Part shown: positions 24,871 to 28,625 of the stretch, piece by piece | Layout of the letters: the number at the start of each line of letters is the position of its first letter | Numbering within the stretch: the stretch's first letter is position 1 | From: Kangiella sp. HZ709 | GTDB taxonomy: Bacteria > Pseudomonadota > Gammaproteobacteria > Enterobacterales > Kangiellaceae | DNA: 64,000 nucleotides | Direction: 5' to 3' | Assembly: GCF_009674675.1 (NCBI RefSeq) | Contig: NZ_WKJC01000001.1 | Coordinates: forward strand, 875,031-939,030 | The notes under the pieces: model-generated | What the model was told of the DNA's origin: nothing | Seen by the model: the letters and a program-made list of their open reading frames with translations, nothing else | The model's database searches: none | Position numbers and translations under genes: made by a program

Positions 24871-25248
24871 ATGAAGCTTAGCTTTCTTTTTGCCTTATTA
24901 ATTTCCTTAGCATCTTGTCAAGCTGCTAAGGATAAGTCTTTTGAAAAAGGACCTGAAAAGAAACTAGCGCATCATGGCATTATTAAGGGCAACAAAGGGC
25001 AGATTGTTGAGATCTGCCCTGAGTTAACTAAAGGGCAATCCATTAGCTTTACCTTCAATAGTAACTTGCCAGTTACGTTTAACTTTCATTACCATCTCGA
25101 TAATGAAACTGTTTATCCAGTTACCGAACGCAACCTCTCAGAGTTCAATTACCGATACAAAGCTGAACAAGATAACGTTTATTGCTTTATGTGGGAGTCC
25201 CTATTGGACAATACCAAAACAAAATACCAGTACAGCCTGATCAATTAA
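24871..25248 (+). CDS. Small putative lipoprotein
   Basis: A 125-residue protein with a lipoprotein-type signal: charged MKLS, hydrophobic FLFALLIS, and a lipobox L-A-S-C with Cys17 as the probable lipidated residue. The rest is a single small domain with beta-strand character (QSISFTFNSNLPVTFNFHYHLDNETVYPVTE). I do not recognise the family. Residue Lys/Ala/Ala after the Cys gives no inner-membrane retention Asp at +2, so outer-membrane sorting is likely by the E. coli rule. It begins 15 bases after valS and converges with the lysC-lysA gene. Confidence 0.65.
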   Translation: MKLSFLFALLISLASCQAAKDKSFEKGPEKKLAHHGIIKGNKGQIVEICPELTKGQSISFTFNSNLPVTFNFHYHLDNETVYPVTERNLSEFNYRYKAEQDNVYCFMWESLLDNTKTKYQYSLIN

Positions 25249-25264
25249 CTATTCGCAACATCAG

Positions 25265-27823
25265 TTAAATACAAAATTCTTCAGCAGGCTCTCGCAAGTT
25301 GTAACGATTACTCATAACGTGGCCATAAGCGCCCACCTTATCGATCAAAACAATATCCCCCTCTTCCGTTGTAGGAAATGGAATTTCTATTCCGAGTTTA
25401 TCTGTGCTTTCACAAATTGGGCCGACGATAGTAGCTAATTTATCTTTCTCCGAATTCATTCGCGTAAGATTTTCTATCGGATGATATGAGCCATATAGAG
25501 CAGGCCTCATAAGCGAATTCATACCCGTATTAATACCCACATAATAATAGTTTTGCTTTTGTTTAACTTGCGTTACTTTGGATATCAAAACCCCAGCATC
25601 CGCAACTAGATACCTTCCTGGTTCTATCCAAAAAGTAAGATCTGGATAATCAGACTTAACCTCATTCAAAGCCAAATTCACCTCGATAAAGTTAAGCGAT
25701 TCTTGTTCCGATTTTTCTTTGATACCAAAGCCACCACCTAAATTAAGATATTTTACTGTTGGTAATTCTGTGGCTAGTCCTGCCAATAATCGCGCATGTT
25801 CCGCCCAATGCTTCGGCGTTAAAATACCACTACCCGCATGGGCATGCAGGCCTACAATAGAAATATTATGCTCTTTAATTACATCTTTAATCAGATCTAA
25901 CTCGTAAATGGGGATACCAAATTTAGAAGTAGCTCCAGCAGTCCTAACGTTTTCATGATGTCCTTTTCCTATATTCGGGTCAATTCTAAGAAACACCGAC
26001 TGTCCTGAAAATATATCAGCCCACTGGGTTAGCGGATAAGTACTGTCTAAGGATAAATTAATACCTAATGATAAAGCTTGTTGATATTCTGCTTTATTAG
26101 CAAAGTTTGGAGTGAAAAATACTTTTTTTCTATCTATGTCAGGAAATAAATCTAAGATTAATTGTATTTCATTTAAAGATACCGTTTCAAAACCTAAATC
26201 TTGGTGATAAATATTTTCTAATATCTGTTTATTGTTATTCGCTTTTACCGCAAAGAAAACTTGCTCAATAGCTTCCAATGAAGATAGTTGCTCTACTTTT
26301 TCGTTTACCGTGTTTTTATGATACACATAGGCCTGATCTGTAGAACTCAAAATTTCCTCTAATCTATCAACTTGTTCTTGCCACCACCTGACTTCTTTTA
26401 GTTGAATATTTTGCTTTAATTCTGAAATTGTAGGTCCTAAGATCGAGCTATTAGGGTTATTGCTAATCAATAACTCATGTAAAGAAGCAATCACCTTTTC
26501 TGTAAATTCATCATCTATCACAAAGGTAAGATTTAGGTCTGATGCTGCTTGCGATAAAAGGTAGACGGGATAAGTTTCAAAGATGCTTAAGGCCGGTGAT
26601 ATTTTGTGTAGGATTGCTCTAACATTTTGACCTACAATAGATACCGCTGTGCAATTTGTCATTAATTCAACATCAGCAACCTCTTCTAAATCACGCATCA
26701 AGCGCGATAGTTCCTTTGTTTTTATCACCTGAGTCAAGCTGTCTAAGGTGACTGTTATGTTGGTTTCAGAAGTAGAAACTAGATCAATCGAAAAGTTGTG
26801 CTTTTTGAATATCGCAAAAATATCCGCTAAATAACCCGCTTGTTGCCACATACCCTGGCTTTCCATTGAAATCAAAGTAACTTTTTCTTTAGCGGTCACC
26901 GCCTTAACCATGCCTTTAGTCGTTTCAGCAGAGTAAATTTTAGTTCCTTTAATTTCAGGTGCCAAAGTCGAGCGAATATAAATTGGGATTTGAAATTCTT
27001 TGGTAGGTTGAATCGCTCTTGGATGCAAAACTTTTGCACCTGCCGAGGCCATTTCCTGAGCTTCAGTATAATCTAGTTGCTTTAATAACCGAGCATTTTG
27101 CACTTGATTAGGGTTGGCAGTAAAAATACCTTCAACATCAGTCCAAATTTCTAATCTTTCAGCTGTAATCTTACTGGCAAAGTAAGCTGCTGAAGTATCA
27201 GAACCTCCACGACCGGTTAATACGGTTTCCTGTTCTCCATTCGCGGCAATAAAGCCTTGTGTTACAACCAAAGATGATTGATTGATAAAGGAGATTAATT
27301 TTTTGTCAGGATCGTAATTACAATTAACCGTTAAATATTGAGAGTCCTCTGAAGTGCTGAGTAGATATCGCCTTGCATCAAGCCAAGTTGCGTTATTATT
27401 TAAAGTGCGATTTAAATACTCAGCGCCTATTGTAGTTGACCATAGCTCTCCTTGGGCTAAAACTTCTGCTCTAATTCGATCAGATACTTCGCCCAATAAC
27501 AAAATACCATCCAACATTTTTTTTAGGTAAGACTGCTGCTCAGTTAACAGCTCCTGAGGTAACTCTAACTCCGAAACTAATTCTTTATGAGCATAAACAA
27601 CCTCATTAAATAAGCTCAGAGTTTTTTTATCTTCACCATTAATAGCGAACTCTATGATTCGCTCTAAAGTATTAGAAATACCGCTTAAAGCGGAATGAAC
27701 AATCATTACTCTTTTATTAGCAACTAGTTTTTTTTTGATAATCTTGACGATATTTTGCCAATTCCTTACCGAAGAAACGCTGGTTCCTCCAAACTTTAAC
27801 ACCTGCCACTGTTGTTGATTCAT
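25265..27823 (-). CDS. Bifunctional aspartate kinase/diaminopimelate decarboxylase
   Basis: An 852-residue fusion that joins the first and last enzymes of lysine synthesis: aspartokinase (LysC) and meso-diaminopimelate decarboxylase (LysA). The kinase half (about 1-470) begins VLKFGGTSVSS, has VLTGRGGSDTSAAYFA and two ACT regulatory repeats. The decarboxylase half (about 500-852) is a fold type III PLP enzyme: the PLP lysine is in VFFAVKANNN, followed by GLHAHAGSG, NLGGGFG, EPGRYLVADAG and the CESTDKLG segment. The same fusion is known from Xanthomonadales and a few other gammaproteobacteria. A ribosome binding site GGTGA precedes the ATG at 27823. An intrinsic terminator lies only about 22 bases upstream, so expression must be controlled by read-through; see the leader and attenuator entries. 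Confidence 0.95.
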   Translation of the reverse strand: MNQQQWQVLKFGGTSVSSVRNWQNIVKIIKKKLVANKRVMIVHSALSGISNTLERIIEFAINGEDKKTLSLFNEVVYAHKELVSELELPQELLTEQQSYLKKMLDGILLLGEVSDRIRAEVLAQGELWSTTIGAEYLNRTLNNNATWLDARRYLLSTSEDSQYLTVNCNYDPDKKLISFINQSSLVVTQGFIAANGEQETVLTGRGGSDTSAAYFASKITAERLEIWTDVEGIFTANPNQVQNARLLKQLDYTEAQEMASAGAKVLHPRAIQPTKEFQIPIYIRSTLAPEIKGTKIYSAETTKGMVKAVTAKEKVTLISMESQGMWQQAGYLADIFAIFKKHNFSIDLVSTSETNITVTLDSLTQVIKTKELSRLMRDLEEVADVELMTNCTAVSIVGQNVRAILHKISPALSIFETYPVYLLSQAASDLNLTFVIDDEFTEKVIASLHELLISNNPNSSILGPTISELKQNIQLKEVRWWQEQVDRLEEILSSTDQAYVYHKNTVNEKVEQLSSLEAIEQVFFAVKANNNKQILENIYHQDLGFETVSLNEIQLILDLFPDIDRKKVFFTPNFANKAEYQQALSLGINLSLDSTYPLTQWADIFSGQSVFLRIDPNIGKGHHENVRTAGATSKFGIPIYELDLIKDVIKEHNISIVGLHAHAGSGILTPKHWAEHARLLAGLATELPTVKYLNLGGGFGIKEKSEQESLNFIEVNLALNEVKSDYPDLTFWIEPGRYLVADAGVLISKVTQVKQKQNYYYVGINTGMNSLMRPALYGSYHPIENLTRMNSEKDKLATIVGPICESTDKLGIEIPFPTTEEGDIVLIDKVGAYGHVMSNRYNLREPAEEFCI

Positions 27824-27845
27824 TACTTCACCTTTTACCAGCCAT

Positions 27846-27870
27846 AAAAAAACCCGCCGAAGCGGGTTTT
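27846..27870 (-). terminator. Attenuator terminator before the lysC-lysA fusion
   Basis: On the minus strand AAAACCCGC, loop TTCG, GCGGGTTTT, then further T (seven T in all after GCGGG): a nine-base stem closed by the extra-stable C(UUCG)G tetraloop. The last T is about 22 bases from the start codon at 27823. No promoter can fit between hairpin and gene, so the gene can only be expressed when RNA polymerase passes the terminator. A segment GCGGGT at 27891-27896 (minus strand), upstream, can pair with the hairpin's 5' arm ACCCGC. Confidence 0.85.
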
Positions 27871-27888
27871 AAATTTAAACTATCTTTT

Positions 27889-27966
27889 TTACCCGCAATA
27901 CGATGCCATAGCTTTATGTTTCAAAGCTTTTTTAGCGAACGATTTATTGCAGATGTTTATATTCAT
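27889..27966 (-). CDS. Candidate lysine-rich leader peptide
   Basis: A 25-codon open frame with ATG at 27964-27966 and stop TAA at 27889-27891. The peptide starts MNINICNKSFAKKALKHK and ends AMASYCG. Five of 25 residues are lysine, four of them within seven codons (K-K-A-L-K-H-K). The final codons TGC GGG TAA contain the GCGGGT that can pair with the terminator's 5' arm, so a ribosome reaching the stop codon would cover it, while one stalled at the lysine codons would leave it free. This fits a lysine-specific ribosome attenuator. The weak point is the ribosome binding site: AAGG ends only two bases before the ATG, so initiation may be inefficient or near-leaderless. Confidence 0.5.
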   Translation of the reverse strand: MNINICNKSFAKKALKHKAMASYCG

Positions 27967-27969
27967 GGC

Positions 27970-28001
27970 CTTATACTTATATAAAATTCTGTAGATGTCA
28001 A
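27970..28001 (-). promoter_or_regulatory. Possible promoter of the lysine leader
   Basis: A perfect -35 box TTGACA occupies 27996-28001 on the minus strand. Candidate -10 boxes downstream are TATAAG at 27976-27981 (14-base spacer), TAAGTA at 27974-27979 (16-base spacer) and TATAAG at 27970-27975 (20-base spacer); none has the ideal 17. Any of them would start the transcript close to the leader ATG. Confidence 0.35.
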
Positions 28002-28085
28002 TCTACTCATTACTTATAGATTAGGAAACTGATAAGAAGTTACAATAAAACTCTTTATAGTTGCTAGTCTTTCTTAGTTAGTGCA

Positions 28086-28625
28086 TCAAATAAACCTTTC
28101 AAGCCATAAGAGCCCAAGCACCAAAAGCAATAAGTAATAAAGCCCTACTCCTACAATTCCAAGCCAACCGGTTATATTAACTAAAGCACTATTTTCAACT
28201 GGTTCATCACCATAGGCATTTTTATGCTGTTCACCTGGCATGATTATTAATGCCAAGCCTATCAAGGGAATTAAGCTTGTGAGTGCAACGAAACCTCTAT
28301 GCCCCATATCATGAGCTCTTTGTATAGAAAGCCAAACACCGTTAATAACGGCCGATATCAGAATCACTAACATACCAATCCAAAGCACAACATCTAAGCC
28401 ATAGGATGTACGATCTGCAAAAGGGTCTCGATAATCTAAATAAAGTATCAGATATATTACAAAAACATAGCCAAAGAAAATGATGCTCGGCAGAAAGTAA
28501 GCCAACTGCAAATACTTCAGTCGATTCATTCGCCCTCTAAAATTGAAATATTTAAAGTGTTGCTTCTGCCCTATTTCCGCAACCTGTATATCTGCTTTCG
28601 GTGCTTGATATACAGAATCATCCAT
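28086..28625 (-). CDS. DUF805-family inner-membrane protein
   Basis: A 179-residue membrane protein. After a soluble N-terminus comes the DUF805 signature FNFRGRMNRLKYL, then four hydrophobic segments (about 45-65, 85-105, 120-135 with the typical RAHDMGHRGFVAL before it, and 155-175). DUF805 proteins such as E. coli YhaH and YhaI have no established function. Its start overlaps the end of tadA by eight bases, so the two are co-transcribed and probably coupled. Confidence 0.85.
   Translation of the reverse strand: MDDSVYQAPKADIQVAEIGQKQHFKYFNFRGRMNRLKYLQLAYFLPSIIFFGYVFVIYLILYLDYRDPFADRTSYGLDVVLWIGMLVILISAVINGVWLSIQRAHDMGHRGFVALTSLIPLIGLALIIMPGEQHKNAYGDEPVENSALVNITGWLGIVGVGLYYLLLLVLGLLWLERFI

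Follow-up and report, generated by a model that had tools for sequence, protein, structure and literature searches.

The lysC-lysA gene of Kangiella sp. HZ709 is very probably preceded by a lysine-specific transcription attenuator of the classical ribosome-mediated type, a reading that draws on comparative and computed evidence. Comparison of genomes and computation show a conserved short open reading frame (ORF) with conserved lysine codons, a terminator, alternative pairings, a recurrent promoter geometry and the absence of an L-box riboswitch in the DNA before this gene. These observations support the proposal of lysine leader-peptide attenuation made in a preliminary description of the same DNA, with conservation, modelled folds, riboswitch absence and promoter position all pointing in that direction.

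Organization of the element

The element lies on the minus strand of the window, by which is meant the whole stretch of 64,000 nucleotides that was analysed, and is composed of the following parts.

27996..28001, minus strand: -35 element TTGACA, from the sequence
27973..27978, minus strand: weak -10 element AAGTAT (3/6), with a spacer of 17 nt, ending 6 nt before the leader ATG
27889..27966, minus strand: lysine-rich leader peptide ORF of 25 codons, MNINICNKSFAKKALKHKAMASYCG, stop TAA, from in-frame pN/pS and comparison
27945..27954, minus strand: segment 1, AUCUGCAAUA, 5' arm of the anti-antiterminator in the computed folds
27891..27900, minus strand: segment 2, UAUUGCGGGU, 3' arm of the 1:2 pairing in the folds, overlapping the end of the leader ORF
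27896..27891, minus strand: GCGGGU within segment 2, 5' arm of the antiterminator in the folds
27862..27867, minus strand: segment 3, ACCCGC, 3' arm of the antiterminator and 5' arm of the terminator in the folds
27846..27870, minus strand: intrinsic terminator with a 9-bp stem, a UUCG loop and a T7 tract, from sequence and fold
27828..27834, minus strand: likely Shine-Dalgarno sequence AAGGTGA of lysC-lysA, from the sequence by eye
25265..27823, minus strand: lysC-lysA fusion of 852 amino acids, the regulated gene, from NCBIfam NF006515 (PRK08961)

The preliminary description had reported a UUCG-capped terminator of nine base pairs with seven T about 22 bases before the start codon, and upstream of it a 25-codon ORF with five lysines, four of them in KKALKHK. 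Both are present on the minus strand, the ORF running from 27966 to 27889 and containing no arginine. The terminator arms read AAAACCCGC-TTCG-GCGGGTTTT and are followed by T7; 18 nt separate the leader stop from the terminator stem, and 22 nt separate the terminator from the lysC-lysA start codon at 27823. The complementarity proposed between GCGGGT (27896..27891) and ACCCGC (27867..27862) in the terminator arm is also found as described. The minimum-energy fold of positions 27820-28005 has a z score of -3.95 relative to shuffled sequences. An automatic terminator scan of the window listed another site and not the terminator of the lysC-lysA leader.

The downstream gene was correctly recognized as an aspartokinase/diaminopimelate decarboxylase: its product matches the NCBIfam model for the bifunctional aspartate kinase/diaminopimelate decarboxylase (PRK08961) with 1165.6 bits, compared with a cut-off of 802. 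One other PF00278 protein was found in the genome of the window (G000) and is of the exosortase-associated type (TIGR03099, 517.3 bits, cut-off 478.45), making the fusion the likely sole lysine-forming decarboxylase of this organism. On the single-domain lysA model (cut-off 297.9) the fusion scores 297.4 and the other protein 280.8, below the cut-off.

A gene for a 179-residue membrane-like protein, with a start of the form MDxxxYQxPxAD and without an NCBIfam match at 1e-10, is located at window positions 28086..28625; in G000 and G011 it is flanked by tadA and lysC-lysA. Near the locus in G004, G015 and G017 there are genes for proteins that begin similarly.

Conservation within the genus

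A search of 41 genomes with the fusion protein found the full-length lysC-lysA fusion in 19 of the 20 genomes of the same genus. A covariance model of the element matches immediately before the fusion in all 19 (E from 6.8e-25 to 4.4e-14), 18 of these loci having been used to build the model and thus matching by construction. Each genome contains one strong site, the next-best having E above 0.001; the sole second match of comparable strength is an additional piece at a contig end in G012 (E 2e-6). The G012 contig starts inside the leader, the remaining part of which reads FKKHSKKALKKRVSIGCG followed by a stop, and this genome is left out of all counts of 18 given here.

A short ORF of 24 to 32 codons followed by an RCCCGC...GCGGGT terminator with a T tract is present in 18 of 18 genomes, and a terminator of this kind precedes the fusion in all 19 genomes that have it. 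From the AUG to the T tract the leaders span only about 120-160 nt, and the ORF and terminator take up this length. Alignment of the relatives, which had been suggested as a check, thus shows the lysine-rich ORF, the pairing of segment 2 with segment 3 and the terminator to be conserved within the genus.

The one genome of the genus from which the fusion is absent, G017, has no match to the covariance model at E 0.001. Its single PF00278 match is presumably the exosortase-associated decarboxylase, and the organism may be a lysine auxotroph.

Coding and promoter features of the leader

Lysine accounts for 108 of the 440 residues of the 18 leaders (24.5%), compared with 6.4% in the long ORFs of the window genome. 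Six main lysine columns are apparent in a codon alignment, with lysine in 16, 15, 17, 18, 18 and 14 of the 18 leaders, and the last lysine codon is found 8 codons from the stop in 14 of 18 (range 6-10). The leader of G015 is an exception, with three lysines in 29 codons (binomial P 0.26). Pooled over pairs of leaders that are not independent, pN/pS is 0.48 in frame (0.52 without the ends) versus about 0.85 and about 0.83 in the shifted frames; such in-frame selection argues for translation of the leader ORF, which we infer. The C-terminus of the peptide is CG in 15 of 18 leaders and CVW, CAW or CAR in three genomes, where other bases maintain the pairing with segment 3, suggesting that the 3' end of the ORF is held by RNA pairing and the lysine run by coding.

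Richness in lysine would not identify such a leader in one genome. In 424 kb of the window genome, which hold 165 terminator-like sites, five of 62 short ORFs just upstream of such sites contain at least five lysines, and the lysine count of the window leader has a binomial P of 0.016. This null comparison led to the rejection of lysine richness as sufficient evidence in a single genome, and the reality of the leader therefore rests on its conservation among relatives.

A -35 element TTGACA or TTGACT, a spacer of 16 or 17 nt and a -10 element ending 6-8 nt before the leader AUG are observed in 17 of 18 genomes. Of the 17 leaders other than that of the window, 16 have TTGACA or TTGACT 28-30 nt upstream of their ATG; the differing genome is G008, in which 33 nt lie between the end of the -10 element and the AUG. 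The -10 element is the poor AAGTAT in G000 and G011 and TATATT or TAGACT in the remaining genomes, and a stricter promoter scan found none in the leader region of the window. As a rule transcription begins some 7 nt downstream of the -10 element, which would place the AUG at or very near the 5' end of the transcript, and the leader mRNA is probably leaderless. The poor ribosome-binding site of the leader, listed as a weak point in the preliminary description, is indeed seen and would be a consequence of the predicted leaderless start. The promoter predicted here is situated upstream, and not downstream, of the leader ORF, as the model of that description requires. The -10 geometry and the leaderless leader mRNA that it predicts are new here.

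Alternative RNA structures

The antiterminator had been considered weak in that it comprises only six base pairs. This is true of G000, G011 and G004, whereas longer pairings are predicted in the other 15 of 18 genomes. In most of these other leaders segment 3 pairs with UGUGGGU or GUGGGU, and an additional helix lengthens the pairing, such as UUCUG with CAGGA in G007; a third solution is found in G008, G015 and G016 (e.g. UAGUCUGUGC with GCAUAGACUG in G015). The CCCGC core of segment 3 is invariant in all 18. In every one of the 18 leaders the natural antiterminator exceeds the mean strength of random synonymous recodings, with 8 to 136 of 300 recodings being as strong as the real sequence and no genome being extreme.

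A helix of 5 bp inside the leader is unbroken in 18 of 18 genomes, with four of its pairs changed on both sides. For the whole structure, none of 500 shuffles reaches the paired percentage or the covariation score, while 19 of the 500 reach the number of pairs changed on both sides and 210 reach that of pair types. The terminator helix is nearly invariant and hence uninformative for covariation. As the alignments displace segment 2 by three columns in G000, G011 and G004, covariation was left uncounted for this segment.

Stalling was modelled by folding the RNA to just before segment 4 (the 3' arm of the terminator) with all RNA masked as far as 12 nt beyond the first base of the A-site codon. 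In this model the competing folds, the computation of which had also been proposed, switch as in a classical attenuator. With the ribosome stalled at a lysine codon, segment 2 occupies segment 3 at a level of at least 0.75 for 105 of the 108 codons, the weak cases being the early lysines K2 of G001 (0.01), K2 of G009 (0.41) and K9 of G002 (0.52). With the ribosome at the stop codon all 18 leaders keep an intact terminator, the zero occupancy of the 2:3 pairing at this position arising by construction from the masking of segment 2. Stalls at 212 of the 278 non-lysine codons also give at least 0.75, so that the specificity for lysine lies solely in the composition of the leader; the special feature suggested by the model is that the lysine codons are packed into the permissive stretch. 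In the absence of a ribosome the modelled 2:3 occupancy is under 0.5 in 14 of 18 leaders, and it leans to 2:3 in G016 (0.77), G015 (0.69), G014 (0.81) and G004 (0.58). The minimum-energy fold holds the 2:3 pairing in five of 18 (G016, G015, G014, G009 and G013). Where the ribosome-free fold favours 2:3, an untranslated leader would be expected to read through.

Histidine and tryptophan leaders of the same genus

Weak matches of the lysine model led to two further sets of leaders, in which the identities of hisG and of the DAHP-synthase gene were each checked by family search of one representative. Histidine leaders precede hisG at 19 of 19 loci (L163-L181), G002 being without a hisG match; an example of the histidine-rich ORF is NHHHHHEKLMAG. 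Tryptophan leaders precede the DAHP-synthase gene in all 20 genomes of the genus (L182-L201) and consist of two tandem tryptophan-rich ORFs with GC-rich T-run sites downstream (L199 being that of the window genome, G000:C3). Tandem tryptophan attenuators would be unusual. Tandem tryptophan-rich ORFs, followed by trpE, are also seen by eye in a relative from another genus (L141).

The promoter picked automatically has its -10 element 6-8 nt before the AUG at 16 of 19 histidine and 14 of 20 tryptophan loci, and the histidine leaders with this spacing are probably leaderless as well. The remaining gaps are -2, 5, 13, 26, 38 and 47, among them cases in which an upstream in-frame ATG or another promoter was picked.

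Mechanism and alternative explanations

In the proposed mechanism, transcription would start at the leader AUG or a few nucleotides from it, and the peptide would be translated from a leaderless mRNA. When lysine is plentiful, the ribosome would pass the lysine codons, reach the stop codon and cover segment 2; alternatively, a free leader would fold with segment 1 paired to segment 2. In either case segment 3 would pair with segment 4, giving termination before lysC-lysA. When charged tRNA-Lys, the presumed signal, is scarce, the ribosome would stall in the lysine codons and cover segment 1, leaving segment 2 to pair with segment 3 once this has been transcribed. With the terminator thus blocked, read-through would allow transcription of lysC-lysA, whose product catalyses the first step of the aspartate pathway and the last step of lysine synthesis.

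A different signal acting on the same terminator switch is conceivable and unlikely: a polybasic nascent chain or runs of AAA could stall the ribosome, so that the leader would sense, for example, general translation stress. The leader consensus KKHSKKALKKR is strongly basic and includes arginine and histidine, two of the six lysine columns contain only AAA, and the modelled switch works at most codons upstream of segment 2. However, lysine is the only consistent feature, since the histidine and arginine columns vary and the window leader is without arginine. Both AAA and AAG occur in the other four lysine columns (for example, in 8 and 8 or in 9 and 8 leaders), an interchange that speaks against this alternative. 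The downstream gene makes lysine, and the sister histidine and tryptophan leaders likewise precede genes of their own pathways, all of which favours a lysine-specific attenuator.

It is very improbable that the hairpin merely terminates transcription of the upstream gene and that the lysine-rich ORF is a chance frame. Such ORFs do occur near terminator-like sites by chance at the rate given above for the window genome, and the gene just upstream of the element is tadA (assigned by eye) in 15 of 18 genomes. Nevertheless, the ORF is separated from the upstream gene by a promoter-like TTGACA site and is under in-frame purifying selection. In addition, the element keeps its place before lysC-lysA in the three genomes (G000, G011 and G004) in which the upstream gene is another one. 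In G017 the gene order is otherwise kept, with tadA (80% identical), a membrane-protein gene and a homologue of the gene at window positions 24871..25248, which is the gene following lysC-lysA; the stretch examined between these neighbours contains no lysC-lysA, leader or GGGTTTTT run. On the basis of promoter position, in-frame selection, the upstream-gene exchanges and G017, assignment of the hairpin to the upstream gene was rejected.

An Rfam scan of the window gave no family reaching its gathering score, including T-box, Trp_leader, Leu_leader and Phe_leader. For positions 27600-28300 at E up to 5, the lysine riboswitch (RF00168) is not among the 16 matches listed, and Trp_leader scores 20.8 bits against a cut-off of 41. 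RF00168 was found in none of the 20 genomes of the genus, while four of the 14 control genomes matched, confirming the earlier impression that there is no trace of an L-box here. Control of the terminator by a lysine riboswitch or another metabolite-binding RNA, with the ORF being incidental, is therefore the least probable of the alternatives and was rejected: a passage of PMC2659441 does list Shewanella lysC with the lysine riboswitch, but RF00168 is absent where the controls work and the leaders of about 120-160 nt are occupied by the ORF and the terminator.

Comparison with known systems

Textbooks describe leader-peptide attenuation for a fixed set of amino acids, with Escherichia coli trpL as the type example of a ribosome-mediated attenuator, and lysine regulation is assigned to riboswitches and T-boxes. 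According to a passage of PMC2659441, the trp, his, leu, ilv, thr and phe attenuators share codons for the end product in the leader ORF, overlapping 1:2, 2:3 and 3:4 pairings and a terminator before the first gene. Unlike these, the window element is of a lysine type, has no evident ribosome-binding site, is apparently leaderless and precedes a fused gene. The L-box likewise places lysC under the control of lysine; it does so by direct ligand binding and without a leader peptide, unlike the window element. In a passage of PMC1262725 lysine is described as L-box controlled, with no conserved element before lysine operons in Actinobacteria.

Two systems of Sinorhizobium meliloti offer partial parallels. 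The trpL leader ORF (rnTrpL) is situated at the 5' end of its transcript and yields a leaderless small mRNA, as described in a passage of PMC10117765; this leader is for tryptophan, belongs to an alphaproteobacterium and is described as leaderless, whereas the Kangiella lysine leader is leaderless by prediction only. The small ORF SEP5, located before an aspartate dehydrogenase gene, is leader-like, has lysine codons and possibly encodes a leader peptide (PMC10117765). It has three lysines and six threonines, being mainly a threonine ORF, and precedes a different gene, and the passage concerned states no attenuator structure. Searches of an open-access library brought up no published lysine leader-peptide attenuator.

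On balance, it seems that this genus has replaced control of lysine synthesis by a riboswitch or repressor with a lysine attenuator, and that the lysine, histidine and first tandem tryptophan units are leaderless. If this is true, the element would be the first lysine member of its class and part of a genus-wide regime of leaderless attenuation, in which the ribosome must load on a 5' AUG and translation be coupled to transcription from the first nucleotides. A leaderless start, as predicted, matters for the question of how ribosomes are recruited early enough for attenuation, and lysine, histidine and tandem tryptophan units occur side by side in the single background of this genus. A conserved attenuator for lysine would mean that this amino acid too can be served by the same type of switch, and that control by the L-box has an alternative.

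Occurrence outside the genus

Searches with the covariance model, which is mostly sequence-driven, suggest that the element is confined to the genus. At E 0.001 the model matches 20 of 40 genomes in the family search, namely the 19 described above and G052; at E 1e-4 it matches 18 of 394 genomes in a sample of the order, 17 of them in the genus together with G214; and in a sample of the class it matches one of 369 genomes, which is the genome of the window. Both outside matches were rejected. The G052 match is a tryptophan attenuator before DAHP-synthase and trpE genes in another genus, and the terminator matched in G214 precedes an aspartate kinase/homoserine dehydrogenase gene; no lysine-rich leader was recognized there by eye.

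Eighty distant loci were fetched, and up to 450 nt of upstream DNA was scanned for the 60 with a whole or nearly whole fusion, L077 being without upstream DNA. Some lysine-rich short ORF is present upstream in 14 of the 60. Inspection by eye of the upstream DNA of 12 distant loci, including four of the 14, revealed no such leader, and none was found at four fusion loci outside the genus (L020-L023). In L066, from a Woeseiaceae metagenome-assembled genome (MAG), the lysine-rich frame runs through the terminator. Lysine leaders may nevertheless precede fusions elsewhere, for example at the 10 further loci with lysine-rich ORFs.

L066 and L039 (a Chromatiales MAG) each have a strong GCGGGT terminator with a long T run about 90-110 nt before the fusion, following the apparent end of another gene; terminator control without a lysine leader is possible at these two loci. 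In an Rfam scan of 18 fusion loci from elsewhere, no lysine riboswitch was found in the DNA examined. At L036 a SAM riboswitch is present 1.2 kb past the lysC-lysA fusion.
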